Source: a bacterium
GTDB taxonomy: Bacteria; Hydrothermota; DG-26; JAUXAN01
Reading direction: 5' to 3'
Length of the DNA stretch: 50,650 bases
Assembly: GCA_030619885.1 (NCBI GenBank)
Contig: JAUXAN010000015.1
Coordinates: forward strand, 1-50,650
Shown: piece after piece, positions 11,951 through 39,501 of the stretch
Layout of the letters: each line of letters opens with the position of its first letter
How positions within the stretch are numbered: position 1 is the first letter of the stretch
Translations under genes and position numbers: made by a program
Notes under the pieces: model-generated
Database searches by the model: none
The model's input: only the letters and a program-made list of their open reading frames with translations
Told to the model about the DNA's origin: nothing

Positions 11951-11972
11951 ACTTCCTCCTTTAATAAATTTA

Positions 11973-12013
11973 AACCACTGATTACACAGATTATCACAAG
12001 ATTTTACAGATTA
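11973..12013. repeat. Degenerate ACACAGATT-type dispersed repeat
   Basis: aaccactgattacacagatt followed by atcacaagattttacagatt: three imperfect direct units. Better copies occur at 28403, 32711 and 39473. Confidence 0.6.
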
Positions 12014-23033: not shown

Positions 23034-23100
23034 AAACTAATTAAATACAAACGAAGAATACATCCCAACAGTAAAAACTTTAAATCTTCAGAAATCTATT

Positions 23101-23429
23101 TCAAAAATTCGAATTTGTGGACAAGTAGAATTCTGACACCAAAATCTATAATTAGAGACATTTATTTTATTGTTTGAAAGAACATGAACAAATCCGATTT
23201 GTTTTGATGAAACTATTTCAGAAATTCGAATTTGTGAGTAAATGAATATTAACTTCTCTGGATCTAGTAGAATCAATTATAATAAACTAACATATGCCTT
23301 ATCACAATATTTCAAAAATTCGAATTTGTGGACAAATATAATATTGACTTCTTAGACTTTTTTGATTAAAATCAATTATGATAAATTAACATACGCATTT
23401 AATAATATTTCAGAAATTCGAATTTGTGA
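23101..23429. repeat. Array of four palindromic operator-like repeats
   Basis: tca(a/g)aaattcgaatttgtg occurs at 23101, 23218, 23312 and 23410. The core aaattcgaattt is a perfect palindrome, and the whole unit is nearly one. A variant, acaaatccgatttgt, lies at 23188. Spacings are 117, 94 and 98 bp. The sequence between the last copies is also similar (aatcaattat(a/g)ataaa, then taacata), so it is a degenerate ~95-bp tandem array. It ends 48 bp before the ArsR-like gene. Confidence 0.75.
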
Positions 23430-23477
23430 ACAAGTCATGATATGAATGAAATTCGCAAACTATGAGGAGGTGATTAA

Positions 23478-26852: not shown

Positions 26853-26945
26853 GACAGGATGAACAGGATAAAATATTATGAAATATGAAGGAAATAAAAA
26901 TAAATCTGCGGTTATCTGTCATACGACCCGTAGGGACGGAAATCT
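26853..26945. repeat. Dispersed repeats in the hypC leader
   Basis: gacaggatgaacaggat plus aaaatattatgaaat (26853-26884) matches 32824-32856. gtcatacgacccgtaggg (26918-26935) matches 18 bp inside the nrdJ coding region (46070-46087). ggacggaaatctgcgtcc forms a small hairpin. Confidence 0.7.
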
Positions 26946-28342: not shown

Positions 28343-28559
28343 ATCCGTATGGACGGATGCTGATATGGATAAACACAGAGAAAAAAAGAACCCGCAGAAC
28401 TGAACCACAGATTACACAGATTAACACAGACTAAAGCACAGGAGAAAGGAAAAAAACAGAACCCCTTCCATCCATGTGGTTATTGTTACATTTTTTAATT
28501 ATGATGAACGGCCTGTCGCAGACCCGTAGGGGAAGACCATTCACTACCAACTCGAGGGC
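28343..28559. other. Repeat-rich spacer between convergent hypD and archease
   Basis: It contains a good copy of the ACACAGATT repeat (28403-28430: aaccacagattacacagatt then aacacaga), a broken ccgtatgg palindrome (28343-28357) and gacccgtagggg (28523). No gene is seen, and no terminator with a U-run is clear. Confidence 0.6.
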
Positions 28560-28982
28560 TTATATGTCAAATATGACCTGGACTTCCCAGACATCTTTTA
28601 CTTTCTTTATGTAGAGTTGATGGTAGGTTACTGTCTTTATTTCGCTCTTCAACTTGTGCCTTCTTCTATCAATCTTCTCACCGAAACAGTGGGAGGAGAG
28701 TTTCTGCTCAGTAAGAGTATGTATGTCAAACTTTTTGAAGATCATTTCATCGACTTCAAATCTGTAGAGCAATTCCCTCAACCATTCAACGAATAATTCA
28801 GTCAAATTTTCTGATTTTACTTCTATGTCTTTTCTTTCTTTCTCTTCCACATTGTTGAGGTCGGTTATTATATCGAAGAGGGCATAAGCTGAGTTAGAAA
28901 AAAGAAGTGGCAAATTTTTGCCCCAAACTTTGATACCGAGGTCAGCGGTATGGTCTATAAATTCATACTTGGTTTTTATCAC
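28560..28982 (-). CDS. Archease
   Basis: The 140-residue protein has the archease start YEFIDHTADLGIKVWG with metal ligand D14 in DHTAD, ENLTELFVEWLRELLYRFE and the C-terminal KDVWEVQVIFDI. Archease activates the RNA ligase RtcB (tRNA or RNA repair) by aiding guanylylation. It uses GTG directly after the kamA stop, with ggagc inside the kamA end, so it is the last gene of the ATP-grasp/GNAT/kamA operon. rtcB is not in this window. The link between an RNA-repair cofactor and this operon is unexplained. Confidence 0.9.
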   Translation of the reverse strand: MIKTKYEFIDHTADLGIKVWGKNLPLLFSNSAYALFDIITDLNNVEEKERKDIEVKSENLTELFVEWLRELLYRFEVDEMIFKKFDIHTLTEQKLSSHCFGEKIDRRRHKLKSEIKTVTYHQLYIKKVKDVWEVQVIFDI

Positions 28983-30110
28983 TTACTTTTTTGCTCCTAC
29001 AGTCGTCTCTACCTCAGTGAATAATTCCTGCTGAGTTACAGTAACAGGCTCTTCTGACACAGGGGTGAGCTCAGTTATCTGGGGATACCTGTAGATTCTA
29101 CCCTTATAGTTTCGCATGATGATCTCTCTGTTGTTTATCTTTACAATGTAGTTCGGTAAGAGCGGTATCTTTCCTCCGCCGCCCGGCATATCAACTGCAA
29201 AGTGGGGAACTGCAAGTCCGGAGATGTATCCCTGCAATTTACGCATTATCTCTAAACCTTCCTGAATAGTAGTTCTAAAATGATTGGCACCTCTCACAAA
29301 ATCCGACTGGAAAAGGTAATATGGTTTTACCCTGAATGTGAGAAGTTTCCTGAACAGGTCTTTGATAATATCAGGGTCGTCATTTATCCCTCTAAGTAGA
29401 ACAGTTTGATTACCCAATGGAATTCCTGCATCTGCAAACTTCTCGCAGGCAATCTGTGCCTCTTTTGTCAGTTCATTTGGATGGTTGAAGTGGGTGTTTA
29501 TATAGAGCGGGTGATATTTCTTAAGTAGCTTGGTGAGTCTTTTTGTAACCCTTTGAGGTAAGGTGCAGGGTATACGAGTTCCAATCCGTATTATATCAAT
29601 ATGTCGGATTTCTTTCAATGATTTTAGAATCCATTCTAATTTTTTATCTGTAAGTAGAAGTGGATCTCCACCGGAGAGAACGACATCCCTCACCTTCTTT
29701 GTCTTTCTAATATATTCAATACCTGCTCTTATCGTATCGTCCGTAACGACGAATTTGTGCCCAACCTTTCTCTTTCGGGTACAGAATCGACAGTATATCG
29801 CACATTGGTCTGTTACGAGAAGAAGAACCCTGTCAGGATAGCGGTGAGTTAAATTTACTACAGGTGAGTCTACTTCTTCACTGAGTGGGTCTTTCATCCC
29901 GAATGGGTCTTCAATCTCAGCAATGTCTGGAATACACTGTTTCCATATAACATCTCCTCTGTTTTGAATTAAATCTATGAAATATGGGTTGATACGCATC
30001 GGGTATTTGTTGACGACCCTCCGTGTCTTTTGTGTATCTACATCAAAATATGTTTTGAGTTCACTTACTCTTGTTATACTTCTCGATAAAATATCTTGCC
30101 ACTCTTCCAT
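28983..30110 (-). CDS. kamA: KamA-family lysine 2,3-aminomutase (radical SAM/PLP)
   Basis: The 375-residue enzyme has the radical SAM cluster CAIYCRFC (C103, C107, C110) and the PLP site DMPGGGGKIPLLPNY (K314). The two aspartates that hold the side-chain amine of lysine in known lysine 2,3-aminomutases appear at FQSD (D270) and AVD (D307), so L-lysine to beta-lysine is the likely reaction; glutamate-type paralogues change these residues. It is shorter than clostridial KamA (416) and lacks part of the C-terminus, so EpmB-like relatives cannot be fully excluded. Ribosome site gagggaaataag. It lies 21 bp downstream of the GNAT gene and abuts archease. Confidence 0.9.
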   Translation of the reverse strand: MEEWQDILSRSITRVSELKTYFDVDTQKTRRVVNKYPMRINPYFIDLIQNRGDVIWKQCIPDIAEIEDPFGMKDPLSEEVDSPVVNLTHRYPDRVLLLVTDQCAIYCRFCTRKRKVGHKFVVTDDTIRAGIEYIRKTKKVRDVVLSGGDPLLLTDKKLEWILKSLKEIRHIDIIRIGTRIPCTLPQRVTKRLTKLLKKYHPLYINTHFNHPNELTKEAQIACEKFADAGIPLGNQTVLLRGINDDPDIIKDLFRKLLTFRVKPYYLFQSDFVRGANHFRTTIQEGLEIMRKLQGYISGLAVPHFAVDMPGGGGKIPLLPNYIVKINNREIIMRNYKGRIYRYPQITELTPVSEEPVTVTQQELFTEVETTVGAKK

Positions 30111-30131
30111 CTTATTTCCCTCCTGTACATT

Positions 30132-30608
30132 TTACACCAAATTTTTTTCATAAATTATCTTGTCATCACCGATGGAGTAAAAATCCCCAATTCTACCTGC
30201 TTCAACATAGCCATTTTTCAGATAAAAATTTCGGGTTAATCTATACTTGTCTTGAGACGAAGTCTCTACCAGGATTTTTCTTCCATTTAAGTTTTTGACT
30301 TCACTCTCCACTCTCTTTATAAGAGCACTTCCAACTCCATTCCTCTGCATTTCCCTTTTCACTGCAATCCAGTAAAGTTCGAAGACCCCATCCGACAGAG
30401 CTGCTGGACCGTAATTTGCGTATCCTAAAAGACCACCGTTGTCATCGGTGGCACAGAGGAAAAGATATTCATCTTGCTCTATATTTTCGAGTGCAAAATC
30501 AACGAGTTCTATTGCACAACTGACCTCTTGTGGTGTAAAGCCACCACATTTTGTAAGTAGAGATTCTATTGTATCTCTGTCGTCTTTTTCTAACGGTCTG
30601 ATTCTCAT
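30132..30608 (-). CDS. GNAT family N-acetyltransferase
   Basis: The 158-residue protein has GNAT motif A, LYWIAVKREMQRNGVGSALI, with the acetyl-CoA loop RNGVGSA (about 105-111), and a NFYLKNGYVEAGRI motif B. Its ATG overlaps the stop of the preceding ATP-grasp gene (ATGA), so synthesis is coupled. Next to KamA it could acetylate beta-lysine (the known AblB enzymes that make N-epsilon-acetyl-beta-lysine are also GNATs but longer), or cap a ligase product. The substrate is inference. Confidence 0.88.
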   Translation of the reverse strand: MRIRPLEKDDRDTIESLLTKCGGFTPQEVSCAIELVDFALENIEQDEYLFLCATDDNGGLLGYANYGPAALSDGVFELYWIAVKREMQRNGVGSALIKRVESEVKNLNGRKILVETSSQDKYRLTRNFYLKNGYVEAGRIGDFYSIGDDKIIYEKNLV

Positions 30609-31597
30609 TTTTGTTTCCTCTTTATCGGTAATTCAGCCAGTTTCTCAATGAGTTGTGCATAACTGATGCCGGAAGCCATCGCTGAGCGTGAAAAACCCGC
30701 ATCAAAAGAGATATCAGGGTTCGGATTTACTTCGATAACATACGGGACATCGTATTTGCTCACTCGTATATCCACCCTCGCATAGTCTCTGCATCCCATT
30801 ATGTTATAGGATTCGAGTGCAATATCTCTGACCATCCTTTCTAAATCTTCAGATAGGGTGGATGGACATACAGGGACTGTATTCTGATACTCCACACTAT
30901 CTTCTGTCCATTTGGCATCATAGTTACATATCCTCGGCATACCTGAAGGGAGAGTAGAAAAATCAATTTCGGAGATTGGCATAACGGCTCCGTCAATGAT
31001 TGCAACATTTAACTCTCTTCCATCAATATATTTTTCAACCAATGCGGGTTGCTTATATGTATTCAGTATGTCATGCACCCTATCGAACAGTTGTTTACTT
31101 TCAAAAACTACTGAACTGTTTTCTATGCCGAAACTGGCATCTTCACTTAATGGTTTTACAATACTTGGAAAATCAAATCTATCTACATTGTCAATATCAT
31201 CCAATTTTTCTACAACTCGATAGGAAGGGGTCGGGATCCCAAAAGTGCGAAGGATTGACTTCGTCTTCTCTTTATTTAGACAGAGTCCTATAGCAACAGG
31301 TTGGGAACCCGTATAGGGGATAGAGAATAATTCAAGCAATGAACAGAAAAGCATCTCACCCCTTGCTTCACCAATTGCTTCTTCAACCAAGTTAAAAACT
31401 ACATCGGGATTCAACTCTTTCATTAAATTGATGAACTCAACGGGCTCTTTAAAACTGACCGGAAAAACTTCATGACCCGAATCTTTGAGTATATCAGATA
31501 TCGTTTCTACATCCTTGCGATTCTCGTATCCCTTAGTATCTCCTTCCTTCGCAGGAGATATCTCATTATAGGCGACTACGATTTTAATGGCATTCAT
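30605..31597 (-). CDS. ATP-grasp ligase, D-Ala-D-Ala ligase-like (second of two)
   Basis: The 330-residue protein has the ATP-grasp fold: FNLVEEAIGEARGEMLFCSL, IPYTGSQPVAIGLCLNKEKT, FPSIVKPLSEDASFGI as the ATP loop, and VIEVNPNPDIS as the metal-binding end. This resembles D-alanine-D-alanine ligase, but the usual DdlB substrate residues are not obvious. The start is ATG 31597, overlapping the stop of the preceding gene as ATGA; a longer start at 31609 lies within that gene. The gene likely forms a carboxylate-amine bond using ATP. With a paralogue in front and KamA behind, a beta-lysine-containing dipeptide is a plausible product. Confidence 0.88.
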   Translation of the reverse strand: MNAIKIVVAYNEISPAKEGDTKGYENRKDVETISDILKDSGHEVFPVSFKEPVEFINLMKELNPDVVFNLVEEAIGEARGEMLFCSLLELFSIPYTGSQPVAIGLCLNKEKTKSILRTFGIPTPSYRVVEKLDDIDNVDRFDFPSIVKPLSEDASFGIENSSVVFESKQLFDRVHDILNTYKQPALVEKYIDGRELNVAIIDGAVMPISEIDFSTLPSGMPRICNYDAKWTEDSVEYQNTVPVCPSTLSEDLERMVRDIALESYNIMGCRDYARVDIRVSKYDVPYVIEVNPNPDISFDAGFSRSAMASGISYAQLIEKLAELPIKRKQK

Positions 31598-32613
31598 ATC
31601 AGTCCACACCGTTTTGATGCTATTTTTAAAACACGATTGATAAGTTCATCATAATCTATACCGCTTGCTCTGGCAGCCTTCGGAAAACAGGAATTTTCTT
31701 CAGGCTTTGGCAGAATTCCGGGTATGGGATTGAGTTCAAGAATATTTGGAATTTCTTCTTTGTCGAGTCTCAAATCAATTCGACACCAATCACGAATGTT
31801 CAAAACTCTATACGCCTTGATGCAGATAGTTCTTATCTTTTTTTCTAATGAAGCGGGAATATCTGCAGGACATTCGAATATCTCAACAGGATGGTCTGGA
31901 GTATCCCATACCCACTTCGCCTCAAAAGAGTATATCGGTTTCGCATCTTTTGGGAGGTTATCAAAAACCATCTCTACAATTGGTAACACCCGCACTTTAC
32001 CATTACCGAGTAATGCACAGGTGAATTCCCTGCCAGTTAAATATTCTTCTACAAGTGCAGGTTGATTGTAAACGGTTATGCAGTTGTAAACGACTTTTTC
32101 GAGTTCTTCTTTCGAATGAACTACAGAATTATTTCTTATACCTTTACTTGAACCTTCTCGTAAAGGTTTTACAATAACAGGAAACTCCAGTGAGTTTAAT
32201 TTCTGTTTTGAATTATAAAATATTTCAAAACGCGGTGTTGGTATATTATAAAAATGCAATATTTCTTTCGCCCTGGCTTTATCCAAACAGATTGCGAGTG
32301 TAATCGGGTCAGAACCTGTGTAAGGGATATTCAACATATCGAGCACGCAGGGAACCTGAGATTCTCTTGCTGGTCCATTTCTTCCTTCTGCTACATTGAA
32401 AACGATATCGAGTTCAGCACTTTTTAATTTTTCAAACATATTCTCGTCTGCCTCGATACGAACGACATCGTGATTCTTCAAAAGCGCGTTCTCCATAGCA
32501 GAGATAGTCTCCTCAGAATCGTACTCCGCATAGAGGTCACTTTGTGGGGGCTCGTCTTCTTCTTTTAAATTATATACAAGTCCTACTCTCATCCTTTTTA
32601 CAAAGGACTTCAT
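31594..32613 (-). CDS. ATP-grasp ligase, D-Ala-D-Ala ligase-like (first of two)
   Basis: The 339-residue protein has FNVAEGRNGPARESQVPCVL, IPYTGSDPITLAICLDKARA, FPVIVKPLREGSSKGI (ATP loop) and NILELNPIPGI (metal site). It is clearly related to the next gene, but divergent, so the two arose by duplication and probably take different substrates. It opens the five-gene operon. The promoter is a TTGACA at 32650-32645 with a 17-bp spacer to AAAAAT, only ~9 bases before the start, so a leaderless mRNA is possible. Confidence 0.88.
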   Translation of the reverse strand: MKSFVKRMRVGLVYNLKEEDEPPQSDLYAEYDSEETISAMENALLKNHDVVRIEADENMFEKLKSAELDIVFNVAEGRNGPARESQVPCVLDMLNIPYTGSDPITLAICLDKARAKEILHFYNIPTPRFEIFYNSKQKLNSLEFPVIVKPLREGSSKGIRNNSVVHSKEELEKVVYNCITVYNQPALVEEYLTGREFTCALLGNGKVRVLPIVEMVFDNLPKDAKPIYSFEAKWVWDTPDHPVEIFECPADIPASLEKKIRTICIKAYRVLNIRDWCRIDLRLDKEEIPNILELNPIPGILPKPEENSCFPKAARASGIDYDELINRVLKIASKRCGLI

Positions 32614-33127
32614 CTTGTTTTATTTTTTAAAAAATAAAATAAAATGTCAAGTTTTTTCAACCAATTTTTGAAAAAAAATTAAAAAAATAAAATAAAAATA
32701 AAAAAAATAAAACCACAGATGAACACAGATTAACACAGATTTTTATTTTAAGACAATTTTGGAAAAGTTTTCTAACCAAAGAAGGTAGTGCAGGGTTTTC
32801 CCGCATCCATACGGATCCGTATGGACAGGATGAACAGGATTAAATGTTATGAAATGAAAAATAACATGCAAATCATTTTAAAAATAGGGACGCAGGTGAA
32901 CCCCGTTAGAAAGTTCATTTATAAGATAAATGGAAAAAATTCATTAGAAGAAACTCCTCTCCCCGTCCTTTCTAACGGGGTGAACGCAGATATACAAGAT
33001 TCAAAAATTAGAAGAATAAAGATTAAAAAAAATTTGCAATCTTCGAATCTTGAATCTTTCAATTATCTGTAGCTTCCTGCAAAATGGTTGTCAGATAATC
33101 TTTTTTGATTTTTTCTGTTAGGTTTAA
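32614..33127. other. Repeat-rich gene-free region
   Basis: From left to right: A/T tract with the promoter for the ATP-grasp operon, ACACAGATT repeat (32711-32740), perfect 20-bp palindrome tccatacggatccgtatgga (32806-32825), gacaggatgaacaggat repeat (32824-32856), and an inverted repeat ccccgttagaaag / ctttctaacgggg (32901-32913 and 32968-32980) flanked on both sides by tgaac. A 94-codon frame across it is made of these repeats and is not taken as a gene. Confidence 0.7.
32896..32985. mobile_element. TGAAC-flanked palindromic insertion
   Basis: tgaaccccgttagaaag at the left and ctttctaacggggtgaac at the right enclose ~54 bp. The ends match the small insertion at 15896-15933 (tgaaccccgtaaga / tcttacggggtgaac). 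The interior may be captured or expanded loop. Confidence 0.55.
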
Positions 33128-34657: not shown

Positions 34658-37600
34658 TTATTTCACCACTATCTCGAACGGTTCTTTCACTGTCTCAATT
34701 TCAGGGTTGTAGTATTCGTATACCCTGCACTGCACAGTCTTTGCCCGAAGCGGATACTTCGCCCTCAAACGGTATGTAAAGTCAATGGGTCTACCACTTT
34801 CTATCTTGTCAAGATAGACTATTATCTGTCTCCCCGTTAAAGAGTATTTCTCTATCGTCTTTTTTTCAACGAGTCCATCTAAATCGGGTGTGAGAACCTG
34901 AAATCCAGGTGGAATTCCTAAATCTACGATGACTAAATGTGCGATGCCTGGTCTGTTGTTTCTTACATTCACCTTCACCCCTACGATGTCATTCTGGACG
35001 AGTTCCTTTTTGTCGTATTTCACATCGATGGTCAACAGTTCTTTTAGTGGTCTCGGTTCGGCCTCCCATGGCAGATAATACTTGCTCACAATCTCGTAGA
35101 GTAAACTTCCTTCACCTTTGAACGAAAGTTCAATTCTGTTTTTGCCTTTTTTCGTTTCTTTCTTTAAATCGAGCGTTCTCACAACATCACAATCCTGCGG
35201 AGTGATCCTTATACTCTGGTATTTTTCTCCATTTATCTTGACAACTACCTCACCATCTGTCTTTTCCGCTATTCCTCCCAATGATGCAAGCAATGTGCGG
35301 AGGGCAAGAATGGTTCCCTGCGTGGAATACCATGTGCCATAAGGGTCTTTCGACTGAATTAAATAGGTCAACGCCTTATTCAGTATGTCACCGTATTTTC
35401 CATACTTAAGCAGAGCATAGCACACTAATGCGGTGGTCTCTATCTGCGCGCCATTTCCCCTCGTGTTTGTTATGGACGAAACAACAGGTTTCCAGTAAAC
35501 TACATTTCCCTCTTCCACCTTCATTCTGTCAAGTTTTTCAAAGACCCTTTTTGTTGCCGCATCATTTTTACCGTACAAGACAAGGGCATTGGCACAGAGG
35601 GATAAAGTGTATGGGTCTTCTGCTTTATTCAGATTATCCTTTATGAACTTTATCGCTTTATCGATTTTCGCATCCTGAATTCCCACATCGAGCAGTGACC
35701 AGGCTACATAAGCGGTCGAAAGCACTTCCTTTCCTTTAAACTTTCCCCAGGTTTCTGCATGGCAGTACCTCTCATCAGGGAGGAAAGAACCATCCGTTTC
35801 CTGTTTTGAAAGAAGCCATCTTGCCGTTCTCTCAATTACCCGTTCATCTATCTCATACACTTTACTCATATCATTAAATTCCATAAAACCGTATGCGGTC
35901 AAGAGTTTATTTGCAGGTGGATTACCAAACCAGTCGAACCCTCCGCCTTCTACCTCGAAACTCAAAAGTCGCTGGTAGCCAAGATTTATATATCCTTCCG
36001 CTTTCATCTCCAACTCCGGTGTGACCTGTTCGATCTTTCTCATATAATCGAGCACCAAGATATTTGGGTAGGTCACAGAGGAAGTCTGCTCAAAACATCC
36101 AAATGGCATACGGAGGAGCGCATCGAGACCTTCAACTATCTGGGAGAATATCCCTGGATATATCCGCACCAATATCTTCGATGCACCTTCAATAGCAAGG
36201 GTTGGAATGATGACTGTTTTATCCACATCCTTCTCGAGTCTGTCGCTCAATACATCGAGATGGACCTTCCCGTCGGGCATAACTTCTATTCTCTTTTCAA
36301 TCGCATCGGACATATACTCTCCATAAGCTTTAACGAGTAGTTTGTGATACCCGAGTTCCTTTGCATGAATTCTGAAATAGACCACCGTTACCTCGTCTTT
36401 TTTCAACTCTATCTTTTTGGTAGGTTCATCGAGCAGTTCAAACCAACTATTCGCTTCCAATTTCAATTCTATCTTCTGTGAAGTGGGAAGATAGTTATAG
36501 ACTGCCACAGGAATTGATATCTCATCTCCCTCTGTGAGTGCAATGGGTAGATCCAAATCAATAAAGAAATCCTGGAATACTCTGATACCCTTTTCGGTAG
36601 TCCCGAGTTCGCCCTTCTTGGAGGAAGAAGTAACGCTCATCCTCCACTTCGTAATCGAATCTGCAAGTTTCAATTTTAAGGACGCCTTCCCATCTTTGTT
36701 GGTAATGAGTGAAGGTTTAAAAAGGAGCGTCTCAGGGAAATATCTTCTCACCCTCGGCTCTTCAACCCTGGTCGCTTCAGGTAGAGCGGAAGGTGGTGCT
36801 TTTTCTTTAAACTCCTCAGCTTCAAAAGCCATATCCGCTACAATACCTTCTTCCACTCTAACAGCGCCTTTCATTAGACGGGGTGGTTGCACCATTTCAG
36901 AAGATATATCATCCGATGTCCCTTTCTTTTTATCAGGTCCATAACTCAAAATGGTAAAGTAGGAAAATCTGTATGGAATAATTATCTCATAAGGAACTCC
37001 CCATGGGTCTAAAATATCCTTTTTATGCAAAAATCCTCCCTTTAAAACAGGGGTTAATCCCTCGTCTTTTTCTGGATATTTCCTTTTTGCATTGTAATAT
37101 TTGTTAACGCCTCTCATAATTTTCTGCCTGTCATTTACAATCCGATTACGAATCGACTCTTTAAGCACATTTATCTTCTCCTGATAAGTATTGACTTCAA
37201 TTCCATAATCTATTTCTTTGCAGGATGCAAAGACAAGATTTGCTACTTTATCCATCAATTCCTTTTTCTTTATCACATCTAACTCAGGAACACCGACTAT
37301 GAGCGCAGGGGTGAACCCATGAATTTCGTATCTTGGCTCTGCCAATTCACGCTCTAATGTGAAATATATCTTCTCCATTCCGGGTTTCAGTTCAGTTAAG
37401 GCAAAGACAGCCTCGTCTACAACGGCAACACCTAAGACGGCAGCACACCCTTTCCCTTTTCTGTCTGTGACCGAAAAATCGAGTAGCGCTTCTTCGGCAG
37501 GCTTATAGGTTTTTTTATTGAGTAGTATACTTATATTCAAATCATTGGCAGGGTTCACATAGAGGGCTTTTGTATCCCGAACTATATCACCTCTCTTTGT

Positions 37601-39418
37601 AATCGTATATGCTGAAAGCCATATAGAACCAGAGAGTTCATTGGTTAAATCGAGATTGAAGGAGCCGACCCCGTCTTTCACTTTCAATGATTTTGTGAGT
37701 AAGGTCTGATTGTTTTTTATCATATCTAAATAGACCACGCCCTGTCTCTTTGTTGCAAGAACATCAATTTTTACCCGTTCGCCTACTTTATATAGAGACC
37801 TGTCGGTTCTGAGAAGAATACCTTCTGCTTTTTCTTCTATTTTGAACTCTTTTTTTAATTCTCCCTTCATACCCTTTTCGTCCACTGCGGCAATGGAAAC
37901 GGTGTAGGCTAAATCTGTGGGGGTAAAGGAAATTTTGGCGATACCGATTTCATCCGTCTCTATCTCTCTTTTGAAACCACCTGTTTCGACTGTCAATTTT
38001 GTTTTGGCAGGCTTTCCGTCTGGATAAGTGGTCATAAGATATATCCTGTTTTCCACCTTTTGAACTATCTCGCCACTTTCAGGCACTACAACAATCCTTA
38101 TCGGGTCTTTTGCAACTTTCACATTGGCAGTGGTTCGTTCGATATGCTCTGCTCTATCTTCAACTTCAAGTTCAAATTGGATGAAGGCGTTTCCCTGTTC
38201 AAGGGGAAGTCCGACGAAATAGGTGGGCAGTCTCAATTCAAATTCAAAATTCCCATTCCTATCGGTAGTTCCATCTATTTCCTCAAAAGTCGAGAACTCA
38301 ACATCGAACTTTTTACATATTATCTTCACCTTGCCGCCACTTACAGGTTTCTCAAAGAAGTAGTTCACAGATATATCACCTTTCAATTTCTCCCCGGGTA
38401 GGTAGTAGTCTTTATCTGTCTTGAATTCGATTTTGAATTTGGGAAGCACATATCTGCTCACCGTTACCGTCTTCTCTTGAGTTATCTCCCCAATTGTGGC
38501 AGATATTTTATATCTTCCAAAATTTATCTCATCGGCAAGTTGAAATACAGTCGATGCAACACCAAACTCATCTGTTATCTCTCTGCTTTTAAATACCCTG
38601 TTACCTTTCGGGTCTTCCACCTCGATTAAGATTTTCTCTCTTTTTACAGGATGGAGTTCGGGTTTTTTTAGTGATAGAGTTCTTATGTGAATTTTCTGAT
38701 TTGGTTGATAGATAGGTTTGTCGGTTATCAAATATATTTGGGTGCCATTTTTAATATTTACATTTTTCACTACCTTATCCTCTCCAAAGGGAGACTTTAC
38801 TGTAATTTCAAGTTCACCCTTTTCAATCCTTTCAGGAATTTTAAAAGAGGCATCCACCGTTCCGAATCTATCTGTTTTTCCACGATAGAGTGTCCCCTTC
38901 TTCTCTTTTGTATTCAAGCCAATTTTTACTCTCGCACCTTCTATGGGTTCACTGGAACTATGGTCGAGGGTTACAACCCTGATAGATGCTGTAGAGCCTT
39001 CGATGAATTCAGAATGTCCTAAAATATGGGTTTCGAGTTGTGGAAGTATCTGCGAGAGAGAGACTATACCTTCTACACTCCCCCTTGGAGATATGAAATT
39101 ATATTTGAGCCTTTGCAGATATAGTTTCTCTTTATCGTGTTTGTATGGAAGTGAAAAGACGACTTTTTTCTTCCTCCATTTCAACTGGATGTCTTTGGTG
39201 TTTTCAGTAAGAATTTGGTCATCAAAATCTACTATTTCAACTTTTAACTTACCGAATACCATCTCATAGGTTGTATTAAGAACATGCAGTTTTATAATCA
39301 ATCTATTATTTCTAAAGTAGGCGGAAATCTTATCTTCATCTATACTTACACCCTCTTTGCCGAAGAGTAGTGAGACAGATAAGGGTAGCAATAAAAAAAG
39401 GAACAACATCCTTTTCAT
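34658..39418 (-). CDS. Alpha-2-macroglobulin family protein with GspG-like insert
   Basis: The 1586-residue secreted protein starts at ATG 39418 (KRMLFLFLLLPLSVSLLFG signal peptide); aaggaggtttt lies before it, so the in-frame TTG 18 bp upstream is not needed. It has MG domains (TDKPIYQPNQKIHIRTLSL is the classic A2M entry), the thioester MPFGCFEQT near residue 1110, an alpha-alpha barrel and a C-terminal receptor-like domain. Residues ~765-840 (KYPEKDEGLTPVL, DILDPWGVPYEI, ILSYGPDKKKGTSDDI) closely resemble the C-terminal half of type II secretion pseudopilin GspG, inserted just after VVDEAVFALTEL. No lipobox is seen, so it may be free in the periplasm or exported. It is unlike the first A2M gene, which sits with pbpC. 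Confidence 0.92.
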   Translation of the reverse strand: MKRMLFLFLLLPLSVSLLFGKEGVSIDEDKISAYFRNNRLIIKLHVLNTTYEMVFGKLKVEIVDFDDQILTENTKDIQLKWRKKKVVFSLPYKHDKEKLYLQRLKYNFISPRGSVEGIVSLSQILPQLETHILGHSEFIEGSTASIRVVTLDHSSSEPIEGARVKIGLNTKEKKGTLYRGKTDRFGTVDASFKIPERIEKGELEITVKSPFGEDKVVKNVNIKNGTQIYLITDKPIYQPNQKIHIRTLSLKKPELHPVKREKILIEVEDPKGNRVFKSREITDEFGVASTVFQLADEINFGRYKISATIGEITQEKTVTVSRYVLPKFKIEFKTDKDYYLPGEKLKGDISVNYFFEKPVSGGKVKIICKKFDVEFSTFEEIDGTTDRNGNFEFELRLPTYFVGLPLEQGNAFIQFELEVEDRAEHIERTTANVKVAKDPIRIVVVPESGEIVQKVENRIYLMTTYPDGKPAKTKLTVETGGFKREIETDEIGIAKISFTPTDLAYTVSIAAVDEKGMKGELKKEFKIEEKAEGILLRTDRSLYKVGERVKIDVLATKRQGVVYLDMIKNNQTLLTKSLKVKDGVGSFNLDLTNELSGSIWLSAYTITKRGDIVRDTKALYVNPANDLNISILLNKKTYKPAEEALLDFSVTDRKGKGCAAVLGVAVVDEAVFALTELKPGMEKIYFTLERELAEPRYEIHGFTPALIVGVPELDVIKKKELMDKVANLVFASCKEIDYGIEVNTYQEKINVLKESIRNRIVNDRQKIMRGVNKYYNAKRKYPEKDEGLTPVLKGGFLHKKDILDPWGVPYEIIIPYRFSYFTILSYGPDKKKGTSDDISSEMVQPPRLMKGAVRVEEGIVADMAFEAEEFKEKAPPSALPEATRVEEPRVRRYFPETLLFKPSLITNKDGKASLKLKLADSITKWRMSVTSSSKKGELGTTEKGIRVFQDFFIDLDLPIALTEGDEISIPVAVYNYLPTSQKIELKLEANSWFELLDEPTKKIELKKDEVTVVYFRIHAKELGYHKLLVKAYGEYMSDAIEKRIEVMPDGKVHLDVLSDRLEKDVDKTVIIPTLAIEGASKILVRIYPGIFSQIVEGLDALLRMPFGCFEQTSSVTYPNILVLDYMRKIEQVTPELEMKAEGYINLGYQRLLSFEVEGGGFDWFGNPPANKLLTAYGFMEFNDMSKVYEIDERVIERTARWLLSKQETDGSFLPDERYCHAETWGKFKGKEVLSTAYVAWSLLDVGIQDAKIDKAIKFIKDNLNKAEDPYTLSLCANALVLYGKNDAATKRVFEKLDRMKVEEGNVVYWKPVVSSITNTRGNGAQIETTALVCYALLKYGKYGDILNKALTYLIQSKDPYGTWYSTQGTILALRTLLASLGGIAEKTDGEVVVKINGEKYQSIRITPQDCDVVRTLDLKKETKKGKNRIELSFKGEGSLLYEIVSKYYLPWEAEPRPLKELLTIDVKYDKKELVQNDIVGVKVNVRNNRPGIAHLVIVDLGIPPGFQVLTPDLDGLVEKKTIEKYSLTGRQIIVYLDKIESGRPIDFTYRLRAKYPLRAKTVQCRVYEYYNPEIETVKEPFEIVVK

Positions 39419-39472
39419 AAAACCTCCTTTTTTCAATTTTAACTATTACACATTTCTATGTCAAGTGAAAAG

Positions 39473-39501
39473 ACCCACAGATTGCACAGATTAACACAGA
39501 T
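39473..39501. repeat. ACACAGATT-type dispersed repeat
   Basis: acccacagattgcacagatt then aacacagat, the same family as at 28403 and 32711. Confidence 0.65.

Follow-up and report, generated by a model that had tools for sequence, protein, structure and literature searches.

We examined a window of 50,650 nucleotides of bacterial DNA (contig JAUXAN010000015.1, positions 1 to 50,650 of the forward strand, from assembly GCA_030619885.1, phylum Hydrothermota) in which five consecutive minus-strand genes encode two ATP-grasp ligases (LIG1 and LIG2), a GNAT acetyltransferase, a lysine 2,3-aminomutase-like enzyme (KamA) and an archease. An earlier reading made from the sequence alone had described these five open reading frames (ORFs) as one operon, joined by two ATGA overlaps, a 21-bp gap and a zero-base gap. 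All of these features are present, the 21-bp gap between GNAT and KamA and the zero-base junction (TAA then GTG) between KamA and archease, arranged as follows.

31594..32613 (-): LIG1, Ddl-fold ATP-grasp ligase with a Dala_Dala_lig_C match, retaining the acceptor-carboxylate residues of DdlB
30605..31597 (-): LIG2, second Ddl-fold ATP-grasp ligase, with a remodelled acceptor site
30132..30608 (-): GNAT acetyltransferase, 158 amino acids (aa), RimI-like
28983..30110 (-): KamA, 375 aa, lysine 2,3-aminomutase-like radical S-adenosylmethionine (SAM)/pyridoxal phosphate (PLP) enzyme
28560..28982 (-): archease, zero-base gap to KamA, bystander
31594..31597 (-): ATGA overlap of LIG1 and LIG2, read in the sequence
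30605..30608 (-): ATGA overlap of LIG2 and GNAT, read in the sequence

A scan with Pfam and NCBIfam models detected Dala_Dala_lig_C in LIG1 and LIG2 (98 and 137 bits), radical SAM and LAM_C domains in KamA, a GNAT domain in the acetyltransferase, and archease at 154 bits. The LIG2 ORF as called spans 30605-31609, beginning with a GTG at 31609, which is also a possible start; because the ATG available at 31597 creates the ATGA overlap, it is probably the one used. The genome to which the window belongs (2.46 Mb in 86 contigs) contains one KamA and one archease.

Conservation of the four-gene cassette

Scanning public genomes with a LIG1 alignment yielded 80 loci with 50-59% identity, distributed among Nitrospinota, Acidobacteriota, Ignavibacteriota/Bacteroidota, Auribacterota, Desulfobacterota, Planctomycetota, Chlamydiota, KSB1 and Bathyarchaeota; besides Bathyarchaeota, no fewer than eight named phyla of bacteria have the cassette. 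Across the 86 loci that were compared (the window and 85 others), the order LIG1-LIG2-GNAT-KamA occurs in 54, spanning many phyla, and the remainder are rearranged or partial. An alternative order, KamA-LIG1-LIG2-GNAT, was also seen, and the loci of Bathyarchaeota comprise KamA-LIG1, a convergent LIG2 and a different GNAT adjoining KamA. Because the same order recurs in so many phyla, a property that the sequence-only reading had named as support for its proposal, the association of these four genes is not a matter of chance. The archease, by contrast, stands next to none of the 85 other cassette loci and was rejected as a member. Thus, of the five-gene system originally proposed, the four genes from LIG1 to KamA constitute the functional unit, with the archease joined to them only in the window.

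The ligases and KamA also occur together at the level of whole genomes. Among 60 relatives, mostly from the same phylum, the ligase pair and KamA recur in five genomes, with the GNAT in four. Within the phylum of the window, a strong KamA match is found in 6 of 6 ligase-bearing genomes versus 4 of the 55 that lack the ligases. LIG1 was detected in 38 of 347 sampled genomes of Acidobacteriota, and KamA adjoins it in 15 of the 16 that were inspected. A further set of genomes, chosen mostly for having no complete or adjacent KamA at the ligase locus, proved to encode KamA in every case (13/13). KamA alone was rejected as a marker of the cassette, as solitary KamAs are common in Desulfobacterota.

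Active-site residues of KamA and the ligases

The residues D270, D307 and K314, which the earlier reading had taken as signs of a lysine substrate, are present in the window KamA and correspond to D293, D330 and K337 in the Clostridium lysine 2,3-aminomutase (LAM) of known structure (2a5h). Among 74 cassette KamAs, the equivalents of C125, C129, C132, R134, D293 and D330 of the Clostridium enzyme are invariant and that of K337 is retained in 73, constituting a LAM signature of a CxxxCxxC motif, a carboxylate arginine, two aspartates for the epsilon-amine and a PLP lysine. On a tree of KamA sequences, the cassette enzymes fall into two lineages, one of which groups with the characterised 2a5h enzyme (SH-aLRT 87), and the starred branches require at least three label changes. 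The nearest family is AblA, although the score of 465.8 bits lies under the TIGR03820 equivalog cut-off of 525.4. Scores are also below the cut-offs for glutamate aminomutase (429 vs 650 bits), arginine aminomutase (331 vs 600) and EpmB (241 vs 369), and E. coli EpmB is distant on the tree, which argues against assignment to the EpmB or glutamate mutase groups. Beta-lysine is therefore the probable intermediate, in agreement with the original suggestion: the LAM signature is kept, the genome has no other KamA, and KamAs from two lineages work with the same ligases. That two lineages of lysine aminomutase have been recruited to a single ligase pair further argues that beta-lysine is the compound required. 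The proposal of the earlier reading thus came through the tests that it had itself named as able to refute it.

The predicted structures of LIG1 and LIG2 (predicted local distance difference test scores of 89 and 92) find their best matches among D-alanine-D-alanine ligases (Ddl), with TM scores of 0.75-0.81, and alignment with E. coli DdlB indicates that both have retained the ATP/Mg residues. Both proteins nevertheless score under the curated Ddl cut-offs and have altered substrate sites, and the genome encodes a separate Ddl with canonical residues; the description of two divergent Ddl-like enzymes holds. LIG1 retains S150, K215, R255, D257, E270, N272, G276 and S281 of DdlB, with its R278, G299 and S308 corresponding to the acceptor-carboxylate residues R255, G276 and S281. 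In LIG2, D299, D303, A304 and G305 replace G276, H280, S281 and L282, and A158 replaces S150. These substitutions are widespread in a set of 79 LIG2 sequences: S150 is replaced by Ala in 74, G276 by Asp in 76, H280 by Asp or Glu in 68, S281 by Ala in 53 and L282 by Gly in 78, while the ATP/Mg residues are retained. Y216 is Trp in both ligases, and the Ddl substrate set (E15, S150, Y216, G276 and S281) is not intact, the alignment at E15 being uncertain. In Ddl, the positions that are changed in LIG2 bind the substrates and the carboxylate of the acceptor. Because they are altered, some of them to acidic residues, which might suit an amine, LIG2 probably takes a cationic acceptor that has no carboxylate. 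The RimI-like GNAT scores under every curated cut-off for named GNATs.

Longer proteins with a C-terminal Ddl-like ligase, 644-689 aa in length, were found in five genomes of the same phylum (G005, G016, G023, G057 and G059). We rejected these as variants of the cassette because the one that was read (L038) has a methyltransferase-like N-terminal domain and because a strong KamA match is missing from four of the five genomes. They possibly represent a different ligase system.

Fused proteins with a C-terminal Ddl-like ligase: L037 6917-8962; L038 6473-8410; L039 6539-8473; L040 5666-7615; L041 2206-4275

Polyamine operons in Desulfobacterota

In Desulfobacterota, LIG1-LIG2(-GNAT) stands after genes for a deoxyhypusine-synthase (DHS) homologue, an agmatinase and a pyruvoyl arginine decarboxylase (PdaD), and in some of the resulting DHS-agmatinase-PdaD-LIG1-LIG2 operons the genes overlap. 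The presence of the ligase pair in polyamine operons is a new observation, absent from the sequence-only reading, and it bears on what the ligases join. Bacterial DHS homologues (SpeY) are known to produce homospermidine (PMC9992855). To call LIG1 in 247 genomes of this phylum we used a conservative threshold (E<=1e-60), and more diverged cassettes exist. By this measure, KamA is found in 36 of 36 genomes with LIG1 versus 107 of 211 without (p=3e-10), and PdaD in 29 of 36 versus 88 of 211 (p=1e-5), by Fisher tests that ignore phylogeny; on the same terms, the enrichment of PdaD with LIG1 persists within the KamA-bearing genomes (p=5e-5). PdaD adjoins LIG1 or lies close to it in 12 of the 36. 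In the window genome, a PdaD gene is flanked by two genes of the spermidine-synthase type and follows SpeD (SpeD-SpeE-PdaD-SpeE). Within its phylum, all six ligase-bearing genomes contain PdaD, as do many that lack the ligases.

KamA is located elsewhere in all five of the polyamine-operon genomes whose KamA locus was read, and by eye the unlinked KamA of Desulfobacterota follows, and nearly overlaps, a small gene for a MerR-like regulator. At two loci of Desulfobacterota, several kilobases separate LIG1 from LIG2 (L209 1638-8761 and L210 4186-11314), and the intervening genes include some that look by eye like a sensor kinase and response regulators, suggesting that these ligases are under regulated expression. 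Some polyamine-ligase operons also contain a third protein with weak similarity to ATP-grasp enzymes. A further protein of about 305 aa beside the cassette has no Pfam family over cut-off; its ATP-grasp matches are weak and sub-threshold, with none for the copy at L083.

Extra protein of about 305 aa beside the cassette: L054 7084-7989; L058 221-1141; L072 12012-12929; L083 10969-11883; L198 5634-6560
MerR-like regulator before an unlinked KamA (by eye): L138 524-778; L139 5851-6147; L140 5930-6184; L142 5190-5519

Proposed pathway and alternatives

On balance, we favour the view that LIG1-LIG2-GNAT-KamA is dedicated to the non-ribosomal synthesis of a beta-lysine peptide or amide that is N-acetylated. 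KamA would convert L-lysine to beta-lysine, as its invariant active-site residues suggest, and LIG1 and LIG2 would form one amide bond each, one after the other, by way of acyl phosphates. The acceptor of LIG1 would carry a carboxylate, giving a beta-lysine dipeptide; that of LIG2 would have none and would most plausibly be an arginine-derived di- or polyamine, with agmatine, putrescine, homospermidine or a spermidine-type amine as candidates. With a free amine acetylated by the GNAT, the end product would be a small beta-lysine peptide or amide in N-acetylated form, serving as an intracellular cationic solute or polyamine-like compound. What the analysis shows directly is the conservation of the cassette, its co-occurrence with KamA and with PdaD, the residue patterns and the fold; from these we infer all of the substrates, the order of the steps and the biological role. 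The scheme is weakest at the polyamine cap, given that polyamine genes do not stand beside most cassettes; taken by itself, the cap is tentative. Slightly more doubtful still is the broader proposal of a widespread, undescribed class of metabolites: N-acetylated beta-lysine peptides with an arginine-derived polyamine (agmatine, putrescine or homospermidine) on the carboxyl end, produced by a pair of diverged Ddl-type ligases across many bacterial phyla and Bathyarchaeota.

Several observations weigh against the pathway as drawn. Because the loci of Nitrospinota consist of KamA-LIG1 without LIG2, and because the GNAT is missing from some loci, not all of the steps are universal. PdaD is absent from 7 of the 36 LIG1-bearing Desulfobacterota, and the associations in that phylum come from tests that do not take shared ancestry into account. 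The PdaD gene of the window genome is on a different contig, away from the cassette, and most cassettes, including those of Ignavibacteriota and Acidobacteriota, have no polyamine gene beside them, so a polyamine partner might be a peculiarity of Desulfobacterota. With regard to LIG2, Ser is retained at position 281 in 21 of the 79 sequences, and the meanings attached to the residues derive from Ddl biochemistry and a sequence alignment.

The most serious competitor, which we regard as possible although appreciably less probable than the general pathway, is that the product is an acetylated beta-lysine peptide made purely for osmotic protection, with the polyamine genes being mere neighbours in some lineages. 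The combination of KamA, an acetyltransferase and ATP-grasp enzymes resembles the logic of acetylated-peptide osmolytes. In N-acetylglutaminylglutamine amide synthesis (AsnO/Ngg), a GNAT and an ATP-grasp enzyme make an acetylated, capped dipeptide; the cassette shares this logic but consists of separate genes, with two ligases and with KamA in place of an amidotransferase. In the AblA/AblB pathway to N-epsilon-acetyl-beta-lysine, a lysine 2,3-aminomutase likewise adjoins a GNAT, but the cassette GNAT is not AblB and is accompanied by two ligases. AblB (TIGR03827) has no match in the window genome, which argues against N-acetyl-beta-lysine as the fate of beta-lysine there, and it exceeds the cut-off in only one of 29 genomes tested (G249), alongside four KamAs. 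The scarcity of polyamine genes adjacent to most cassettes is consistent with a solute, whereas the repeated tight linkage to DHS, agmatinase and PdaD, the significant co-occurrence with PdaD, the acidic acceptor site of LIG2 and the lack of an obvious osmoregulation gene among recurrent neighbour families are not readily accommodated by it.

A substrate of KamA other than lysine, giving an intermediate that is not beta-lysine, would be consistent with its score below the AblA cut-off, but the invariance of the R134, D293 and D330 equivalents, the sub-cut-off scores for glutamate and arginine aminomutases and the grouping of one cassette lineage with a characterised LAM make this improbable. 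Somewhat less credit attaches to a streptothricin-type antibiotic cassette: beta-lysine antibiotics are known, and their clusters contain ATP-grasp ligases, but this cassette is tiny and deeply conserved across phyla, its ligases and KamA are unlinked in several genomes, and no recurring exporter or resistance gene was recognised beside it, nor any nonribosomal peptide synthetase or carrier domain among the neighbouring genes that were read, although no scan with models of such synthetases was made. Least probable of all, in our estimation, is a protein-modification role in which the ligases take over from EpmA and attach beta-lysine, and in Desulfobacterota also a polyamine, to EF-P or some other protein. 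Both beta-lysine (on EF-P) and DHS/spermidine (as hypusine on eIF5A) modify members of this homologous family, and the EpmA/EpmB system also uses beta-lysine from a KamA-family enzyme. The window genome has no EpmA (TIGR00462) over the cut-off of 286.9, its best match, at 228 bits, lying in a 480-residue frame that is likely a lysyl-tRNA synthetase; EF-P beta-lysylation was accordingly rejected as the fate of beta-lysine in this genome. EpmA is, however, also present in several cassette-bearing Desulfobacterota, those Ddl-fold ligases that have been characterised take small-molecule substrates, and a single modification needs neither two ligases nor a GNAT.

An N-acetylated beta-lysine peptide or amide thus remains the reading that we prefer. 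The known bacterial fates of beta-lysine are few, comprising EF-P modification, N-acetyl-beta-lysine, catabolism and antibiotics; if the proposal is true, the cassette would add a further, deeply conserved one in many uncultured lineages, assign a function to many KamA genes that belong to none of the known pathways and perhaps link lysine 2,3-aminomutase with polyamine chemistry. Standard family models see its ligases as D-Ala-D-Ala ligases, and the cassette offers a concrete enzyme set for expression and testing. Our literature searches on KamA with ATP-grasp enzymes, on ATP-grasp enzymes with pyruvoyl arginine decarboxylase and on beta-lysyl polyamines, whose coverage left out most subscription papers, found no description of such a system. 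Glutathionylspermidine synthetase and the peptide-spermidine ligases provide a parallel, in that an ATP-grasp ligase acts on a polyamine, but they belong to another ATP-grasp family, and the cassette has KamA and no glutathione. In some beta-Proteobacteria, gss clusters with homospermidine synthase (PMC9992855).

Elsewhere in the window, intergenic repeats (e.g. CCACAGATTACACAGATTAACACAGA) occur at 28397-28430, 39467-39500 and 11967-12000 and at 26853-26884 and 32824-32855, with copies on both flanks of the operon. A 41-nt motif starting TATTTCAAAAATTCGAATTTGTG is present in four spaced copies at 23097-23446, with 66-90% identity to the reference copy, and an ORF of 1592 aa with a TTG start at 34658-39436 appears by eye to encode a protein of the alpha-2-macroglobulin type.

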